Source: Burkholderiales bacterium
GTDB lineage: Bacteria > Pseudomonadota > Gammaproteobacteria > Burkholderiales > UBA6910
Assembly: GCA_026005015.1 (NCBI GenBank)
Contig: BPKG01000001.1
Location: 1,183,501 to 1,247,500, forward strand
Length of the DNA: 64,000 nt
Reading direction: 5' to 3'
Shown: positions 33,258 through 40,422 of the stretch, piece after piece
Numbering within the stretch: position 1 is the stretch's first letter
Layout: each line of letters opens with the position of its first letter
The notes under the pieces: model-generated
Databases searched by the model: none
What the model saw: only the letters and a program-made list of their open reading frames with translations
What the model was told of the DNA's origin: nothing
Program-made: the position numbers and the translations under genes

Positions 33258-34730
33258 TCAGGGACACGGGCCGACCCGGTAGCCCCCGTCCGCCCGCCGC
33301 AGGGTCGTTTCCTTGAAGGGCGACCACAGTCCCATGGGCTCGTGGGACCCCCGGGCGTAGGTCCAGCCCCACGCCACGTAGGCCCGGCCCCGCCGGACGT
33401 GGGTCACGTTGTCGCTGAAATACGGATCGCAGGCGGGCGGCCGAGGCCGGGTGCGCAGGACCGTGCGCCCGACCTCCCGCCGTTCGTTCCCCACTTGGGC
33501 CAACACCCGGTAGACGTACCCGGTCTCGGGCCGAAGCCCGTGGTCGGCGAAGCTCGGTCCCTGCACCGGGTGGAACGCCGATGACGGCCCATCCCCCGAC
33601 TCGCGGATCACCTCGTAGCCGTTTGCCCCGGGCACCGGCGTCCAGGCGAGGGCCACCGCGCCTTCGGCCGCATCCGCCCACAGGGCAGGCTCGGAAGGAA
33701 GCGCGGCCCGGATCTGCGGGCCGCTGGAAGCGCCCTCCGCCAACCGGTCCAGCATGGCCCGCACCGCCTTGATCTGGGCGCCGTCCTTCTGGGCATAGAC
33801 GGGACCGGTGTAGCCCCACCAATCCCAGCACCCCTTGGGATTGAACGGCCAGGCCCAGGTGGCGGTGGTCTGGGGATAGAGCACGATGAGGCGGTTCGCC
33901 TCCGCCCAGGCGTTGTAGCCAGCGTGGCGTGCGTAGGCGTCGCCGATGCGGCCGGCATATTGCAGGCAGCCGTGGAAGGCCACGTGCACCCGGCAGCGGC
34001 CCTCTTCCTCGCACGCCCGGGGCACGTACACGTAGCCCTCGTCGGCGAGGCCGATGCGGCGCGGGGCGCCGCCGGCGAATTCCCCCTGGTCGAAGCGCCT
34101 GAGCCGTTCCCGGGACGCCGCGGTGGGGGGCGCGAGACGCCCGTGGAGGAACTGGAGAAGCGCCCCGGCGCCGTCGTAATCGCAATCGGCCAGGTACTGC
34201 CCGCCGGTCATGGAACAGGCGGTGCCGTAGTCCCGGGTCACCTGGGCATGGCCCGCCGGAAGGGCCGTCTGGTGGAAGATCTGGGCCTGGGGCACGAAAT
34301 GGGCGTAGTAGCGCACCAGGGCTTCGGTCACCGGACGGCGCACCACCCCGTCGTTGTAGCCCGAGAACACCCACACCCGGGCGCGGGCCAGGGGGGCGAG
34401 GGAATCGATCCGGCCCTCCGCCGCCCATCGGCGGGTCAGGGCGACGAGTCGGGGCACGTCCGGCTCCCCTTCCATGCAGGAGAAACGGGCGCTGTCCAGA
34501 TCTCCTTGGGCGCAGGCGTAGGGCCCGGCGGCGAAGACGCCCACCCCCTCCACCAGGGTCCCATGGGCCAGATGGAACTGGACCGCCATGTAGCCGCCGG
34601 AAGAGATCCCCGAGACGGAGGTTCCGGCCAGGTCGGCGCCATAGGCCCCGAGCCGCTCGGCCCCAAGAGCGCAGGCCGTTGCCAGCCAGAGAATCGGCGC
34701 GGCGAGGACACAACGGGAAGGCAAACCCAT
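33258..34730 (-). CDS. secreted short-chain polyhydroxyalkanoate depolymerase (type 2 catalytic domain)
   Basis: The domain order is signal peptide (1-24), catalytic domain, fibronectin type III-like linker (about 335-430) and a C-terminal 60-residue domain. The lipase box GISSG puts the nucleophile at Ser43, very near the N-terminus. FSGYNDGVV, LPAGHAQ and the oxyanion-hole HGC in VAFHGCLQY follow in that order, which is the permuted type 2 arrangement. The last domain has NVTHVRRGRAYVAWG and GSHEPMGLWSPF, similar to polyester-binding domains of these enzymes. It would degrade extracellular poly(3-hydroxybutyrate). The ATG giving MGLPSRC was chosen for the signal peptide; a GTG 11 codons earlier is open. 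Confidence 0.85.
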   Translation of the reverse strand: MGLPSRCVLAAPILWLATACALGAERLGAYGADLAGTSVSGISSGGYMAVQFHLAHGTLVEGVGVFAAGPYACAQGDLDSARFSCMEGEPDVPRLVALTRRWAAEGRIDSLAPLARARVWVFSGYNDGVVRRPVTEALVRYYAHFVPQAQIFHQTALPAGHAQVTRDYGTACSMTGGQYLADCDYDGAGALLQFLHGRLAPPTAASRERLRRFDQGEFAGGAPRRIGLADEGYVYVPRACEEEGRCRVHVAFHGCLQYAGRIGDAYARHAGYNAWAEANRLIVLYPQTTATWAWPFNPKGCWDWWGYTGPVYAQKDGAQIKAVRAMLDRLAEGASSGPQIRAALPSEPALWADAAEGAVALAWTPVPGANGYEVIRESGDGPSSAFHPVQGPSFADHGLRPETGYVYRVLAQVGNERREVGRTVLRTRPRPPACDPYFSDNVTHVRRGRAYVAWGWTYARGSHEPMGLWSPFKETTLRRADGGYRVGPCP

Positions 34731-34872
34731 GCCGGCATAGTAGAGGGGGACTCGCCGGGGCACAAATCCCGCCCCACGGTTTCAAAAATTTCATGAAGAG
34801 GGCTGTAAACTTGGCGGCTCGAGCGGATCCCTCGGACCATTCCTTCATCCTGCACCGGAAGCAAATCACCGG

Positions 34873-36420
34873 ATGAACCTCACCCGCCGCGCCTTTCTCC
34901 TCGGGCTCGCGGGCCTGGCGGCGGCGGGCTGCGCTCCCCGCGTCGTCGCGCCGGCTCCCGCCGGGCGCGACCCCTTCACCCTGGGGGTCGCATCGGGTTA
35001 TCCGCGTCCCCACGGCTTCGTGCTGTGGACGCGGCTCGCCCCGGAGCCCCTGGCGACGGGCGGCGGCATGCCTCCCGCCCCGGTGCCCGTCGCCTGGGAA
35101 GTGGGCACCGACGAGACCTTCGCCCGGGTCCTGGCCCGGGGCGAGGCCGTGGCCCTGCCGGAACTGGCCCACGCGGTCCACGTGGAAGTGACCGGGCTCG
35201 AGCCCGGCCGCTGGTACCACTACCGCTTCCGCACCGGCGATGCGGTGAGCCCCGTGGGCCGCACCCGCACCGCCCCCGGTGGGGCGGTCTCCCGCCTGGC
35301 CCTGGCCTTCGCCTCGTGCCAGCACTACGAGCACGGCCACTACGCCGCCTACCGCCACATGGCCGCCGAGCCCCTGGACCTGGTGGTGCACGTGGGGGAC
35401 TACATCTACGAATCCAGCGGTCTTGCGGCGAACAAGGTACGCTCCCACGGGGCGGGGGAAGCGCTGACCCTGGAAGACTACCGTCGGCGCTACGCCCTGT
35501 ACCGGCTGGACCCCGCCCTCCAGGCGGCCCACGCGGCCTTCCCCTGGCTCGCCACCTGGGACGATCACGAGGTGGACAACGACTACGCGGGCGACCGGAG
35601 CCAGGACTGGGACGAGCGGGAGACCTTCCTCGCCCGGCGGGCGGCGGCCTACCAGGCCTATTACGAGCACATGCCCCTGCCCCGAACCGCCCGGCCCTCC
35701 GGGCCCGCGATGCAACTCTACGCCCAGGCCGGCTTCGGCCCCCTGGCCCGCTTTTTCGTCCTGGACGGCCGCCAGTACCGGGATCCCCAGCCCTGCCCGC
35801 GGCCCTGGCGGAGCGGCGGCAGAACGGTGGACCGGGAAAACTGCCCGCAGCGGCTCGATCCGGCCCGCTCCATGCTGGGGTTGCGCCAGGAGCGCTGGCT
35901 CACGGAGGGTCTCCAGCGGACCCGGGCCAGGTGGAACCTGATCGCCCAGCAGACCATGATGGCCCAAGCGGACCGGCAGCCGGGGCCCGGCCAGGCTTTC
36001 TGGACCGACAGCTGGGACGGCTACCCGGCCGCCCGCAGGCGCCTGCTGGAAACCCTGGCGGCCCAAGGCGTCCCCAATCCCCTGATCTTGAGCGGCGACA
36101 TCCACGCTTTCGCGGTGAGCGAGCTCAAGATCGATTTCGACGATCCCGGCTCGGCCCCGGTGGCGAGCGAGCTGGTCACCACCTCCATCAGCTCCCGGGG
36201 CTTCTCCTGGCGCCGGATCCAGGAAATGGTGGAGGACAACCCCCACATCCTGTTCGCCGACAGCCGCTTCCGCGGCTATACCACCCTGGAGCTCACCCCG
36301 GACCGGGCCGTGGCGCGGCTTAGGGCCCTGCACGACGTCGCGAACCCGGAAAGCCCGATCCGCACCCTGGCGGAATTCGCGGTGGAAAACGGGCGTCCCG
36401 GTCCCCGGCGGCGGGCCTGA
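34873..36420 (+). CDS. phoD: PhoD-type alkaline phosphatase/phosphodiesterase, Tat-exported lipoprotein
   Basis: It has a twin-arginine signal (LTRRAFLLGLAGLAAAGC) whose end, AAGC, is also a lipobox with Cys20, so the 515-residue protein is probably a Tat-dependent lipoprotein. The N-terminal Ig-like domain is followed by the metallophosphatase: FASCQHYEHGHY, VVHVGDYIYES, TWDDHEVDNDYAGD, and SGDIHAF near the end, the metal ligands of the PhoD family. It would release phosphate from phosphate esters outside the cytoplasm. I looked for a Pho box upstream and found only a half-site. It is divergent from the depolymerase and converges with the small membrane protein gene. Confidence 0.88.
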   Translation: MNLTRRAFLLGLAGLAAAGCAPRVVAPAPAGRDPFTLGVASGYPRPHGFVLWTRLAPEPLATGGGMPPAPVPVAWEVGTDETFARVLARGEAVALPELAHAVHVEVTGLEPGRWYHYRFRTGDAVSPVGRTRTAPGGAVSRLALAFASCQHYEHGHYAAYRHMAAEPLDLVVHVGDYIYESSGLAANKVRSHGAGEALTLEDYRRRYALYRLDPALQAAHAAFPWLATWDDHEVDNDYAGDRSQDWDERETFLARRAAAYQAYYEHMPLPRTARPSGPAMQLYAQAGFGPLARFFVLDGRQYRDPQPCPRPWRSGGRTVDRENCPQRLDPARSMLGLRQERWLTEGLQRTRARWNLIAQQTMMAQADRQPGPGQAFWTDSWDGYPAARRRLLETLAAQGVPNPLILSGDIHAFAVSELKIDFDDPGSAPVASELVTTSISSRGFSWRRIQEMVEDNPHILFADSRFRGYTTLELTPDRAVARLRALHDVANPESPIRTLAEFAVENGRPGPRRRA

Positions 36421-36433
36421 GGCGTTCGCCCTC

Positions 36434-36859
36434 TCATCCGCCCAGCCGCGCCACTACCGCCACCGCGCCGAGAAACTGCAGGGCGTTGATCCACACCGAC
36501 AGGCGGTGGAGCCGGTCGAAGCGGGCGTGGGCCTCCTCGTCCCCCGCCGCGGCCGCGTCCCGGTGCCGCTGGATGACCGGCAACAGCCACCGGCGCAGGG
36601 CCAGCGCCGCGAAACCCACTGCGGCCATCACGACCGCCTCCGCCGGGCGCACCCAAGCCAGCGCCCCGGCGGCCGCGAGCCCGCCGATCCCCACCACCAG
36701 GTGGTACCAGGGAAACAGGGCGCGAAGGAACTGGCCCGCCGCGGCAGCCTCCAGCCGGGTGAAGACGAGGGGCGCCACCACGGCGCTGAAGAAGGCCATG
36801 CTTCCCATCACTAGGGCGGAAGCCAGCAGCCCGATCTTGATGGCGATGAGGGATCCCAT
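36434..36859 (-). CDS. DUF4149-like small integral membrane protein
   Basis: 141 residues with four hydrophobic helices (about 5-25, 44-62, 68-85 and 122-138). GSMAFFSAVVAPLVF, FPWYHL and HRLSVWINALQFLGAV recall the DUF4149/TMEM205-like family of unknown function. The start MGSLIAIKIG was chosen; the open frame runs far upstream through the next gene. It lies 23 bases behind the DUF6644-like gene and is probably the last gene of that unit. Confidence 0.65.
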   Translation of the reverse strand: MGSLIAIKIGLLASALVMGSMAFFSAVVAPLVFTRLEAAAAGQFLRALFPWYHLVVGIGGLAAAGALAWVRPAEAVVMAAVGFAALALRRWLLPVIQRHRDAAAAGDEEAHARFDRLHRLSVWINALQFLGAVAVVARLGG

Positions 36860-36882
36860 GGCGAAGCCGGCGGTGCGGGGCT

Positions 36883-37377
36883 CTAAGTGTAGGCGAGGAG
36901 CCGGCCGCAGGCGACGATGGCGATCCAGATCAGGATGGAGGCCCCCGCGTGGAGCCGGGCCAACCCGGGCGCCGGGACGTCCGTGTCCCAGGCCGCCGCC
37001 TGCCGGAAGGGGCCCAGGTGGAACATCAGGGCGTTGATCCCCGCCGCCATCAGCAGGCTCATCTTGAGCAGGAACACCCGGTTCGCGATGAATTCGGAGG
37101 CATGGGCCGAAAACATGAGCAGGCCGCTGGGAACGATGAGCAGCAACGCGGCCAAGCTCCAGGGCAGGAGATGGCAGGCCAGGGCCCCCACCGGTAGGCG
37201 CTTCGAGACGCCCAGCACCCGCAGGTCGAACAGCACCACGCCCCCTACCAGGACGGCGAGGCCGAGCAGATGCACCACCTCCACGATGGGATAGAGCCAC
37301 AGGCTCTCCCGCATCGCTCGGGCGATGGGCAGCGCCTCCACCAGCGCCAGGGGGAGCACTGCCTCCTCCAGCGCCAT
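36883..37377 (-). CDS. DUF6644-like integral membrane protein
   Basis: 164 residues with about five hydrophobic helices. VEVVHLLGLAVLVGGVVLFDLRVLG places a histidine near the start of the second hydrophobic stretch, and conserved-looking HLLPWS and NRVFLLKMSLL follow. I recognise it as the DUF6644 type of uncharacterised membrane protein. Its ATG abuts the stop codon of the DUF6152-like gene, so the two are translationally coupled. Helix histidines of this kind can bind haem or metal, but that is inference. Confidence 0.68.
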   Translation of the reverse strand: MALEEAVLPLALVEALPIARAMRESLWLYPIVEVVHLLGLAVLVGGVVLFDLRVLGVSKRLPVGALACHLLPWSLAALLLIVPSGLLMFSAHASEFIANRVFLLKMSLLMAAGINALMFHLGPFRQAAAWDTDVPAPGLARLHAGASILIWIAIVACGRLLAYT

Positions 37378-37725
37378 TCAGCGCAGCTCCGTAGTCTTGC
37401 CCCCCACGGTGATGCGCTCCGCGCGCATCTCCTGGGGATCGCTGCGGTGGGGATAGCCTTCCACGGTGGCCGGGGTGCCCGGCGTCAACGCGGAGGCTGG
37501 AAGCCCCCGGTTGCTCATACGGCTGGGCGGCGCCAGGACCACCCGCCAGGTTTTGCCCGGCGTCTCCAGTTCGATGAAGCCGTGGGGATGCTCGTAGCCG
37601 GAGCGCTTGATCACGCCGGTGAGGGTGAGCGGGGTCGAGCTGTCGTATCCACTCCAGCCGTGGTGGGCGAGCGTCGGTGTCCCCAAGCCCAGGGCCAGCA
37701 TGAGCGTCAGGATTCGTCTCGTCAT
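37378..37725 (-). CDS. DUF6152-like periplasmic protein, predicted to begin with HHGW after processing
   Basis: A signal peptide (MTRRILTLMLALGLGTPTLA) is followed directly by HHGWSGYD, the characteristic start of the DUF6152 group, then by an about 90-residue beta-rich domain with YEHPHGFIELE and ERITVGGKTTELR. If cleaved after TLA, the mature chain starts with histidine, the geometry used by copper proteins with a histidine brace. The ATG chosen is the one that begins the signal peptide; an earlier start gives six more residues. First of three tightly packed genes. Confidence 0.7.
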   Translation of the reverse strand: MTRRILTLMLALGLGTPTLAHHGWSGYDSSTPLTLTGVIKRSGYEHPHGFIELETPGKTWRVVLAPPSRMSNRGLPASALTPGTPATVEGYPHRSDPQEMRAERITVGGKTTELR

Positions 37726-37753: not shown

Positions 37754-38182
37754 TCAAACGTTCCAGGAACTACTCAAGCCGGCGATGGAAAAACCCTTGG
37801 CCTGCAGGATCGCCAGCAGGGGCCCCGGATCCCGGGGAAACACCGCCACGTAGCGGGGCCCTTTGCCCGCCCGGGGATAGAAGTACACGCCTTTGCGCAG
37901 GAGCTGGCGCTTGAACTCCACCCGCTCGATGTCGGCATAGTCCAGCTCGGCGCGCATGAGGTAAATCGCCACCAGGAAGTCGTCGTACAGGGCCACCCGG
38001 CCGAATCCGCCCAGGTAGAACAGGGGGCCGATCCCGGCCCTTAAGGGGCAGCGCTGCTCCAGCAGGGGCCGGGCCCTGCGCTCCCGCTGGGAGCGCCTCG
38101 ACGGCGCCACCACCAAGGTGAGATAGCCGGTGGCGGCCAGCACCGCCAGGACCGCCCATACCAGCAGGTCTTGATCCTGCAT
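37754..38182 (-). CDS. conserved-looking membrane-anchored protein of unknown function
   Basis: I do not recognise this gene. The 142 residues begin with one hydrophobic helix (about 7-26, WAVLAVLAATGYLTLVV), then a basic stretch SRRSQRERRAR and a soluble domain. In it FYLGGFGRVALYDDFLVAIYLMRAELDYADIERVEF looks like the strand pattern of a small PH-like domain. Four bases of coding-strand ATG context are unremarkable. It lies 12 bases after the DUF4389 gene and 28 before the DUF6152-like gene, on the same strand, so it may belong to either unit. Confidence 0.6.
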   Translation of the reverse strand: MQDQDLLVWAVLAVLAATGYLTLVVAPSRRSQRERRARPLLEQRCPLRAGIGPLFYLGGFGRVALYDDFLVAIYLMRAELDYADIERVEFKRQLLRKGVYFYPRAGKGPRYVAVFPRDPGPLLAILQAKGFSIAGLSSSWNV

Positions 38183-38194
38183 CCCGGCGGGGCC

Positions 38195-38566
38195 CTATTC
38201 CTCCGGATCGGGCCGCCGGTCCCGGGGATCGGGCGTGAGAAGCGCCGCCACTTTCCGATTTTCCCCCTCGTCCGCCGGGCGCCAGGGGCGGGCGCTCGCC
38301 CCCCAATCCTGGAACGGAAAAGGTTTCTGCTCGGTGTTGAACGTGAGGAACAGGAAGATGTTGTAAGCGAAGGCGGCCAATTGGGCGCCGAAGCGGAGCA
38401 GGTTGCCGTTGGGTTCGCCGGTGACCAGGCGGAACAGGAACTGGAGCACGATCACGGCGACGAGCACCAGCTCGGTGATGGTGTAGACCACCCCCATGAG
38501 CAGCATGGCGAAGGCCCGCAGCCACAGGGTGGAGGAGGTGAGGTTGCGCTTGAGGTTCTCGTTCAC
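38195..38566 (-). CDS. DUF4389 domain membrane protein
   Basis: 123 residues with two or three hydrophobic helices. The segments MLLMGVVYTITELVLVAVIVLQFLFRL and TGEPNGNLLRFGAQLAAF, and especially LTFNTEQKPFPFQDW, are the signature of DUF4389. The last 35 residues are polar and unconserved. Function unknown in the family. It sits between the coiled-coil lipoprotein gene and an unknown gene in a run of minus-strand genes after cysS. Confidence 0.82.
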   Translation of the reverse strand: MNENLKRNLTSSTLWLRAFAMLLMGVVYTITELVLVAVIVLQFLFRLVTGEPNGNLLRFGAQLAAFAYNIFLFLTFNTEQKPFPFQDWGASARPWRPADEGENRKVAALLTPDPRDRRPDPEE

Positions 38567-38608
38567 GGCAATTCTCGGACTCCTTGCCCCCGGACGAAGG
38601 CGCCCGCG

Positions 38609-39061
38609 TCAGGCGGCGCGCTCGTCTCCTCCGCCCAGGCGCTCCATGATTTCCCGGTACTGCTGGCGGGCCCGGGCGACGGCCTCCCTCACCTCCTCCC
38701 GGAGCTCGCGCCAGGCCTCTCCCGCCGCCTCTTTGAGCCGGGCCAGCCGCTCCCGCGCCGCGCGGGCTTGCTCTTCCAGCGCCTGGGCGGCGTTCTCGAG
38801 GGCCTCCCGGGCTTCCGAGCCGGCCCGCTCCGCCCGCCGGCGCAGCTCCTTCACTTCCTTCTCCAGGGCCGCCAGCTCCTCCTCGGTGCGGCGCACGAAG
38901 GCTTCCTTTTCCTCCCGCGCCCGGTCGACCGCCGCCCGGGCCGTCTGCCGCACCTCTTCCTCGAGGCCCTTGCCCGTCCCGTCCCGCCCCCGGTCCTCCC
39001 CGCAGCCGCCCGCCACCAGGAGCAGGGCCAGGACCAGCAGCCAGCTCAGGCGCGGCGCCAC
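38609..39061 (-). CDS. putative coiled-coil lipoprotein
   Basis: 150 residues with a signal peptide ending VAGGC (Cys20), a lipobox-like site. After this, residues 30-140 are almost entirely Ala, Glu and Arg in heptad pattern (for example [21 protein letters not shown]), predicting one long coiled coil. No family recognised. Its start overlaps the end of cysS by 16 bases on the same strand. A low-complexity protein of this composition can also be an open-frame artefact of GC-rich DNA, but the clean signal peptide argues that it is real. Confidence 0.6.
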
Positions 39062-40422
39062 AGGGTACCCTTGGGCGTGTCTTCCAGCACGATGCCCGCC
39101 GCCGCCAGCTCCTCCCGGATGCGGTCGGCTTCGGCGAAGTTGCGCGCCCGGCGCGCGTCCGCCCGGGCGGCGATCAACCGCTCGATGCGTTCCGCGGAAT
39201 AGGCGCCGGCCTCGGCCGCCGGCGCCTCCCGCAGGAACTGGAGGGGCTCCTGCTGCAGCAGCCCCAGCACGCCCCCCAGCCCTTTGAGCAGGGCGGCGTC
39301 CCGGGGCGAGCGGCTGCGGTTCACCTCGTTCGCCAGGTCGAACAGCACGGCGATGGCCTCAGGCGTGCCGAAATCGTCGTCCATGGCCTCGCGCAAGCGC
39401 CGGGCCCGGGGATCATTCCAGTCGACCCCGTCCACAGGCGCCTCCACGTCCTTAAGGGCCGTGTAGAGCCGGGTAAGGGCGGCCCGGGCCTCGTGCAGAT
39501 GCTGGTCCGAATAATTGAGGGGGCTGCGGTAGTGGGCACGCAGGATGAAAAAGCGCACCACTTCGGGCTGGAACTTCTCCAATACTTCCCGCACGGTGAA
39601 GAAGTTGCCCAGGGACTTGGACATCTTCTCGTTGTCCACGCGCACGAAGCCGTTGTGCATCCAGTAGTTCACGAACACGTGGCCGTGGGCGCCCTCGGAC
39701 TGGGCGATTTCGTTCTCGTGGTGGGGGAACTGCAGGTCCTCCCCGCCGCCGTGGATGTCGAAGTGCTCTCCCAGGTAGTGCTCGCTCATCGCCGAGCACT
39801 CGATGTGCCAGCCGGGCCGCCCCGGCCCCCAGGGCGAGGGCCATTGGGGCTCGCCCGGCTTGGCCGCCTTCCACAGGACGAAGTCGAGGGGATCCTGCTT
39901 GTGGGGATCCACTTCCACCCGGCTGCCCGCCCGCAGGTCTTCCAGGGTTTTGCCCGAGAGCTTGCCGTAGGCCGGGAACTTGCGCACCGCGTAATAGATG
40001 TCCCCGTTCGCCGCCTGGTAGGCGAGGCCCTTGGCGAGCAGCATCCGGATCATCTCCAGCATGTGCCCCACGTGCTGGGTCGCCCGGGGCTCATGGGTCG
40101 GCCGCTCGATTCCGAGCCGGTCGGCGTCTTCGTGCATGGCTCGGATGAAGCGCTCGGTGAGCCGTTCCACCGGCTCGCCGCTTTCCCGCGCCCGGTTGAT
40201 GATCTTGTCGTCGATGTCGGTGATGTTGCGCACGTAGGTGACGTCGAAGCCGCAGGCGCGCAGCCATTTCACCACCATGTCGAACACCACCATCACCCGG
40301 GCGTGGCCCAGGTGGCAGTAGTCGTACACAGTCATGCCGCACACGTACATGCGCACCTTGCCCGGCGTGATGGGCACGAAGGGCTGCTTCTGCCGGGTAA
40401 GGCTGTTGTAGATCCTCAGCAT
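39046..40422 (-). CDS. cysS: cysteinyl-tRNA synthetase
   Basis: Charges tRNA-Cys. The 458 residues show the class I motifs: CHLGHARV (HIGH-like, residues 36-43) and [10 protein letters not shown], with zinc ligands Cys28 in [15 protein letters not shown], the cysteine of [13 protein letters not shown] and the following [15 protein letters not shown]. The length is standard. It is divergent from ppiB; the 209-base gap between them has an AT-rich stretch (around 40510-40540) that is a likely promoter area, but I could not fix the elements. Confidence 0.97.

Follow-up and report, generated by a model that had tools for sequence, protein, structure and literature searches.

DUF6152 and DUF6644, a conserved gene pair for an exported protein with a predicted N-terminal His-His and a membrane protein that is CopD-like by profile

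Three genes on the minus strand of the window

The window (the whole stretch of DNA that we analysed, 64,000 nucleotides in length) carries three genes which, read along its minus strand, encode in order a DUF6152, a DUF6644 and a DUF4149 protein. Both the open reading frames and the family names had been proposed in a preliminary description of this DNA, and we recovered each frame where it had been placed, with a score above the cut-off of the respective Pfam model (Table 1). The DUF6152 stop codon lies at 37378 and the DUF6644 ATG starts from 37377, a spacing of zero, and 23 bases separate the end of the DUF6644 gene from the start of the DUF4149 gene. Upstream on the same strand are genes for an unnamed 142-aa protein (37754-38182), a DUF4389 protein and an sll1863-type stress protein, and farther upstream an open reading frame (39046-40422) that from its sequence we take to be a putative cysteinyl-tRNA synthetase gene (cysS). 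We found no promoter or terminator signal at the genes exceeding those in shuffled sequence. Because no promoter match was found and 28 bases separate the 142-aa gene from the DUF6152 gene, the three genes may be co-read with those upstream. We note that the window also encodes an extracellular short-chain PHA depolymerase (33258-34763; NCBIfam NF050059, 371.6 bits against a cut-off of 280), whose gene adjoins a PhoD-type phosphatase gene (34873-36420), and that the same genome encodes a separate short CopD-type protein (L182, G000:C1:478531-478824) and HemJ. The CopC model (PF04234) gave zero matches in this genome.

Table 1 Positions of the three genes and of selected features within them (window coordinates)
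Feature	Position	Strand	Product or conservation	Pfam model and score
DUF6152 gene	37378..37725	-	115-aa precursor, predicted mature 95 aa	PF19649, 46.2 bits (cut-off 27)
DUF6644 gene	36883..37377	-	164 aa, four-TM, CopD kind (by profile)	PF20349, 53.8 bits (cut-off 27)
DUF4149 gene	36434..36859	-	141 aa	PF13664, 32.2 bits (cut-off 24.6)
DUF6152, predicted signal peptide, 20 aa, cleavage after A20	37666..37725	-	(-3,-1) pattern; Ala at -1 in 75/77	
DUF6152, codons of mature His1-His2	37660..37665	-	77/77 proteins; 45/45 in alignment A1	
DUF6152, codons of mature Pro27-His28, strand 1/strand 2 turn	37582..37587	-	77/77; strand limits from AlphaFold model	
DUF6644, codon of His36, TM1, aligned with conserved CopD TM1 His	37270..37272	-	70/70 DUF6644	
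DUF6644, codon of Lys105, TM3 start	37063..37065	-	69/70 DUF6644, one gap	

Pairing of DUF6152 with DUF6644, and the place of DUF4149

Searches of 249 genomes across the phylum with PF19649 identified DUF6152 in 22, and searches of the same genomes with PF20349 identified DUF6644 in 16, every one of them among the 22 with DUF6152. With a custom DUF6644 model (A3, 42 proteins) DUF6644 was found in 21 of the 249 genomes, all inside the 22 (Fisher p 1.3e-29, the relatedness of the genomes being ignored), and G010 is the only DUF6152 genome without it. Using our own profiles, we found the two genes adjacent on one strand in 17 of the 22 genomes, 15 with the order seen in the window and two (G019 and G246) with the order reversed, and because of these reversals the linkage is not just inherited synteny. 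The nearest copies of the two genes lie within about 4 kb of each other in G127, G131 and G147, and about 31 kb apart in G241. DUF6644 also lies directly downstream of DUF6152 at 42 of 46 genome_contigs loci, which were gathered by DUF6152 words and whose record titles name Rokubacteria, Methylomirabilota, Burkholderiales and other Betaproteobacteria, Alphaproteobacteria, Steroidobacter/Povalibacter, a deltaproteobacterium and a chloroflexote. At the other four (L093, L095, L108 and L109) no DUF6644 gene is directly downstream, and by eye no other membrane protein gene stands directly adjacent in its stead. We note that at L093 (8601-9530) a membrane protein that by eye looks to be of the HupE/UreJ type is encoded about 2.3 kb downstream of the lone DUF6152 gene. 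DUF6152 and DUF6644 are a conserved pair; co-occurrence of all three families had been suggested as a check, and it holds for these two but not for DUF4149, which is not associated with them.

Specifically, of the 89 genomes (out of 249) that have DUF4149, 7 belong to the 22 DUF6152 genomes and 82 to the other 227, and in no locus examined, the window excepted, does it lie beside the pair, in searches that in part had the window protein as their sole query and would overlook a distant DUF4149. The pair itself has a patchy distribution: of 60 relatives, 7 have DUF6644 by PF20349, and G249, a genome of the same genus, is not one of them. In G249 about 150 bases lie between the PhoD and 142-aa genes; in the window this interval is about 1.37 kb and holds all three genes, and for this reason we think that the three-gene block may have been gained or lost within the genus and that DUF4149 may have come along with it. 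We note that the DUF4389 and sll1863-type genes (window 38195-39061) also seem to be missing in G249 (L218), where a putative cysS is followed directly by the 142-aa gene. The proposal of the preliminary description that all three genes form one functional system draws on their tight packing and would agree with their joint absence from that place in G249, a possible gain or loss as a block, but DUF4149 is beside the pair nowhere else and is not associated with it by genome; we therefore reject the proposal, which we regard as very improbable. DUF4149 is a local neighbour, a passenger, and is not part of the conserved unit. A CopD likeness of DUF4149 was not convincing (CopD against DUF4149, E 0.0024, probability 12%).

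Conserved residues, predicted folds and the relation to CopD

That mature DUF6152 starts with HHGW had been predicted earlier, and at the level of sequence this is borne out. Cleavage is predicted between TLA and HHGW, in agreement with the (-3,-1) rule, and in all of 77 distinct DUF6152 proteins a His-His stands in register right after the predicted cleavage point, preceded by Ala in 75, Gly in one and Ser in one, with Ala, Val, Ser or Thr at position -3 in 75 of the 77. These proteins were taken from loci L001-L109 by BLAST against the window protein (E <=1e-3, the window protein itself counted, duplicates dropped), with starts placed at the nearest Met. Forty-six came from a scan of six seed words, including HHGWSGYD and YEHPHGFI, and are biased to HH and PH because the words contain both motifs; the remaining 31 came from profile searches that required no HH word, and since all 31 have HH and PH they are the freer support. 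Seven of 38 DUF6152 profile matches in the 249 genomes lie outside the 77, and the four of these that were inspected all have HH and PH. There is thus strong sequence support for a predicted His as the mature N-terminal residue. Among the 77 proteins the sole other invariant histidine is His28, mature position 4 is occupied by Trp in 63 cases, Phe in 11 and Tyr in one, and 18 have an RR pattern near the start, possibly a Tat signal. The conserved positions include no Cys or Met save Met50, which is nearly invariant in alignment A1.

An AlphaFold2 model of mature DUF6152 (45-row alignment; pLDDT 95.1, pTM 0.86) has strands at residues 13-25, 28-35 and 38-43, a helix at 47-52 and strands at 65-73, 79-87 and 90-93, in the order of an OB fold. 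The N-terminal ten residues have a mean pLDDT of 82, and one residue of the model is below 50 and one at 50-70, probably the first two. In this model His28 opens strand 2 and a 12-residue arm precedes strand 1; the arm could bend back to His28. The top Foldseek matches were OB domains of lysyl- and aspartyl-tRNA synthetases, VIA-align returned PriB (Z 10.5, rmsd 1.8 over 73) and also SSB proteins, and the best 50 structural matches listed are, as far as we recognised them, OB-domain proteins. The OB fold is common, and the fold of DUF6152 is uninformative on function. Sequence searches found no solved relatives; a Pfam scan at E up to 1 listed DUF6152 alone, and so neither CopC (PF04234) nor DUF1775 (YcnI); and the Pfam model of CusF gave no match. 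CusF is absent from the best 50 structural matches, which excludes nothing. The fold of CopC is a beta-sandwich, and we rejected DUF6152 as a CopC homologue on its different predicted fold and on the lack of Pfam support.

The 'histidine near a helix start' ascribed earlier to DUF6644 is H36, which lies eight residues into TM1 (28-54). H36 and R53 are invariant in 70 of 70 DUF6644 proteins, and K105, G85 and G158 are present in 69, with one gap each; the other histidines are less conserved (H120 in 50, H92 in 32 and H69 in 29 of the 70), H36 being the only invariant one. An AlphaFold model (42-row alignment, pLDDT 94.0) shows short helices followed by four long ones. Mean numbers of Lys and Arg (n=42) are 2.24 and 2.45 in the presumed inner loops and 1.17 and 0.31 outside. 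By these charges both ends of DUF6644 are probably outside (N-out, C-out), a topology that would place H36, K105, R159 and Y163 towards the periplasmic side.

Profile-profile comparison of DUF6644 with CopD gave an E of 2.2e-5 (probability 76%), with His36 aligned to the CopD His, and that of HemJ with CopD gave 7.6e-6 (probability 84%); reversed-profile controls gave 0.03-0.22. The CopD histidine in question is the conserved one of TM1 (23 of 24 rows), and YebZ has His154 at this place. A Lys at a place like that of K105 was seen by eye in YebZ and in the long CopD proteins L157, L158 and L161, and not in short CopD rows, and 25 of 28 HemJ proteins fit the Lys pattern there. By profile, DUF6644 is CopD-like. 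Set against a CopD-type partner is the failure of E. coli YebZ, as a single sequence, to match the DUF6644 profile (E 0.66), as well as the lack of a match of this profile to HemJ (E 0.11) or DUF4149 (E 0.13); the window DUF6644 protein has no Pfam CopD match at E up to 1. In Bacillus subtilis, according to excerpts of a study of YcnJ, the mutation H295A in the CopD part phenocopies deletion under scarce copper, and His295 is conserved and matters in YebZ too (PMC13344008). We infer that YcnJ H295 and YebZ His154 are the same histidine.

HemJ (UPF0093, protoporphyrinogen oxidase) resembles DUF6644 in its four-TM size, its TM1 His and TM3 Lys and its profile match to CopD, but has no direct profile match to DUF6644, and the window's own genome has HemJ as a separate protein. 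DUF6644 is a single four-helix unit, whereas CopD is larger, with eight helices; the tandem DUF6644 copies of some genomes recall the two halves of CopD.

Possible roles of the pair

Our leading but tentative reading is that DUF6152 and DUF6644 may hand over a metal, most likely copper, in the manner of CopC/CopD but on another scaffold. The CopC/CopD analogy had been drawn in the preliminary description, and we regard it as better than a guess because of the predicted N-terminal His-His, the invariant further His and the partner that matches the CopD profile; the part that did not stand is a likeness of DUF6152 to CopC itself, since its predicted fold is an OB fold and the CopC model does not match it. 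As in the CopC/CopD systems (fused in YcnJ; YobA-YebZ in E. coli), an exported protein with a predicted N-terminal His adjoins a CopD-type membrane protein in which a TM His is conserved; the difference in scaffold is judged from the predicted fold and the Pfam model. DUF6152 would be exported (in some relatives perhaps by Tat, given their RR signals) and its signal peptide removed, exposing the His-His at the N terminus; His1-His2 and His28 would together form, on the OB-fold scaffold, the binding site of a single transition-metal ion, Cu(II) being the most likely. DUF6644, whose gene usually comes directly after that of DUF6152, would be a four-helix membrane protein with both ends probably outside and with His36 (TM1) and Lys105 (TM3) towards the periplasmic face, where it would take the metal from DUF6152 for uptake or delivery. 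The grounds of this model are the pairing, the invariant residues, the predicted folds and the profile relation to CopD, from which we infer metal binding, the identity of the metal, physical contact and the direction of transfer.

The nearest worked-out logic is that of YcnI and YcnJ, to whose parts those of DUF6152 and DUF6644 are alike, on another scaffold. YcnI (DUF1775) has a conserved His predicted to be N-terminal, is often encoded near CopD genes and binds Cu(II), as described in excerpts of PMC8424229. According to excerpts of three studies, the extracellular N-terminal-His domains of YcnI and YcnJ bind and exchange Cu(II), which is thought to be passed on to the CopD-type membrane domain (PMC8424229, PMC12362106, PMC13344008). 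Excerpts of PMC12362106 describe poor growth under scarce Cu for His mutants in the CopC site of YcnJ and for YcnI Trp137Phe; the effect of the YcnJ His mutants is severe and that of YcnI His27Ala slight, and this small defect for the N-terminal His of the precedent counts against copper handover. DUF6152 shares with YcnI the predicted N-terminal His, the CopD-type neighbour and a conserved aromatic residue (position 4 in DUF6152), but the excerpts describe YcnI as a membrane-anchored, cupredoxin-like protein whose mono-histidine brace includes Glu (PMC8424229), whereas DUF6152 lacks a predicted anchor and has two more invariant His.

Two other known systems are less close. CusF is a periplasmic OB-fold Cu(I) chaperone with His/Met/Trp ligands; it is, like DUF6152, a small exported protein for which an OB fold is known or predicted, but its ligands lie in the barrel whereas DUF6152 has an N-terminal His-His, and no Pfam match links the two. 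The histidine-brace monooxygenases (LPMO), for which PQQ dehydrogenases are electron donors, likewise have an N-terminal and an internal His, and PQQ dehydrogenases are encoded near some DUF6152 copies, but DUF6152 has another predicted fold, 95 residues only and no known activity.

Around loci of the window's type the best recurring cluster apart from the pair is found at 9 of 46, and by eye we saw no copper gene among the recurring neighbours, which are partly annotated. CopC is present in 8 of the 22 DUF6152 genomes (one of the eight, G200, by a weak match in a 3316-residue frame) and in 48 of the 227 others, which is no clear association and shows no mutual exclusion of the kind that would be a sign of replacement. 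In G127, G131 and G155, which represent one family of another class (taken for Alphaproteobacteria from their sequences), we found 7, 4 and 8 DUF6152 matches, at 17 loci, many of them with a TonB receptor, a PQQ dehydrogenase or a member of a secreted family without assigned function nearby; so many copies in such surroundings would be odd for a copper importer. Members of this secreted-looking, unnamed family lie within 4.5 kb of DUF6152 at 13 of the 17 loci against 0 of 9 control regions picked at round coordinates, and PQQ dehydrogenases at 4 of the 17 against 0 of the 9, three of the four looking like one locus in relatives. We note that five members of the secreted-looking family (loci L188, L189, L190, L194, L195, L233-L235, L237-L239, L241 and L242) were scanned and had no Pfam match, and that several have G-x-W near the mature start. 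A tandem DUF6644 pair and one DUF6152 stand among PQQ dehydrogenase genes in G127, G131 and G155, in G147 a nearby PQQ dehydrogenase carries a cytochrome c domain, and a b561-YceI protein is encoded near DUF6152 in L194 and L195. The surroundings of some copies suggest redox or catabolic clusters, not copper genes. In addition, a histidine phosphatase-like gene is near the pair at 7 of 66 loci from different lineages (L197, L202, L099, L080, L081, L075 and L068; PF00300 confirmed for L197 and L202), and CxxCH cytochrome-like genes occur directly before two tandem diverged DUF6644 genes in L227 (3100-4735) and near tandem diverged DUF6644 genes in L228 (3982-7258), stretches in which we saw no DUF6152.

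A redox role, which we consider somewhat unlikely, is a serious rival to copper handover. DUF6644 would here be a membrane protein that binds b-haem or quinone, and it would exchange electrons rather than move copper, its partners being the metal site of DUF6152, or PQQ dehydrogenases and cytochromes c. The PQQ dehydrogenase loci of G127, G131, G155 and G147, the CxxCH protein genes of L227 and L228 and the b561-YceI proteins are consistent with it, but the surroundings of DUF6152 show no enrichment of CxxCH genes (2 of 152, compared with 1 of 77 among control genes), three of the four PQQ dehydrogenase loci within 4.5 kb look like one locus in related genomes, and no PQQ, cytochrome or b561-YceI neighbour was seen round loci of the window's own type. 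The structure model of DUF6644 also bears on this point: its top VIA-align matches are haem four-helix proteins, namely the designed two-haem 4D2 (Z 10.6, rmsd 2.3 over 104), cytochrome b561 (Z 8.0, 3.7 over 130) and Dcytb (Z 7.5, 3.7 over 128), which argues for a redox role and against copper handover. Unrelated bundles, however, score nearly as high (Z 7.6 for a voltage sensor, Z 7.4 for a cytochrome bo3 subunit), and for helical bundles a Z under about 13, as all of these are, may reflect a common arrangement. Foldseek with this model against the PDB returned nothing reaching E 0.001, and a sequence search for solved relatives one chance-level match only (E 0.054). A b561-type two-haem bundle needs four conserved haem-ligand histidines, and with H36 alone invariant we rejected DUF6644 as a protein of this type. 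HemJ, which matches CopD as DUF6644 does, is a b-haem protein, which again favours a redox role; our literature search found no paper on its haem ligand. Handover and a redox role can both be true, if the membrane partner reduces the metal that it receives.

It is improbable, in our estimate, that DUF6152 binds zinc, nickel or another metal instead, or that its His-His is a protein-protein or catalytic motif and the pair a structural or sensing unit. OB folds are versatile, the best matches of the model are nucleic-acid-binding OB domains and tRNA synthetases, and no Cys or Met apart from Met50 is conserved, all of which would suit such a reading, but without a metal it is difficult to account for three invariant histidines of which two sit at an exported N terminus, and the partner is of the CopD kind. 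More improbable still is that DUF6152 carries a histidine-brace-like copper site on its OB fold and forms with DUF6644 a periplasmic copper redox enzyme or electron relay, fed in some lineages by PQQ dehydrogenases; we know of no case of an OB fold as scaffold for such a site. If this were true, the several DUF6152 copies would serve different substrates.

The names DUF6152, DUF6644, PF19649 and PF20349 do not occur in 5.39 million open PubMed Central papers, a collection in which subscription papers and preprints are mostly not included, and the pair is apparently undescribed. How copper enters bacteria and how metals are handed over in the periplasm is poorly understood. A similar argument, a conserved N-terminal His near CopD genes, led to DUF1775 being taken up as a copper protein, as excerpts of PMC8424229 relate. 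The signature of DUF6152 and DUF6644 is as clear as that of DUF1775, with another predicted fold and in records titled from Burkholderiales to Rokubacteria, and it offers two small proteins in which precisely defined residues can be mutated, His1, His2 and His28 in the one and His36 and Lys105 in the other.
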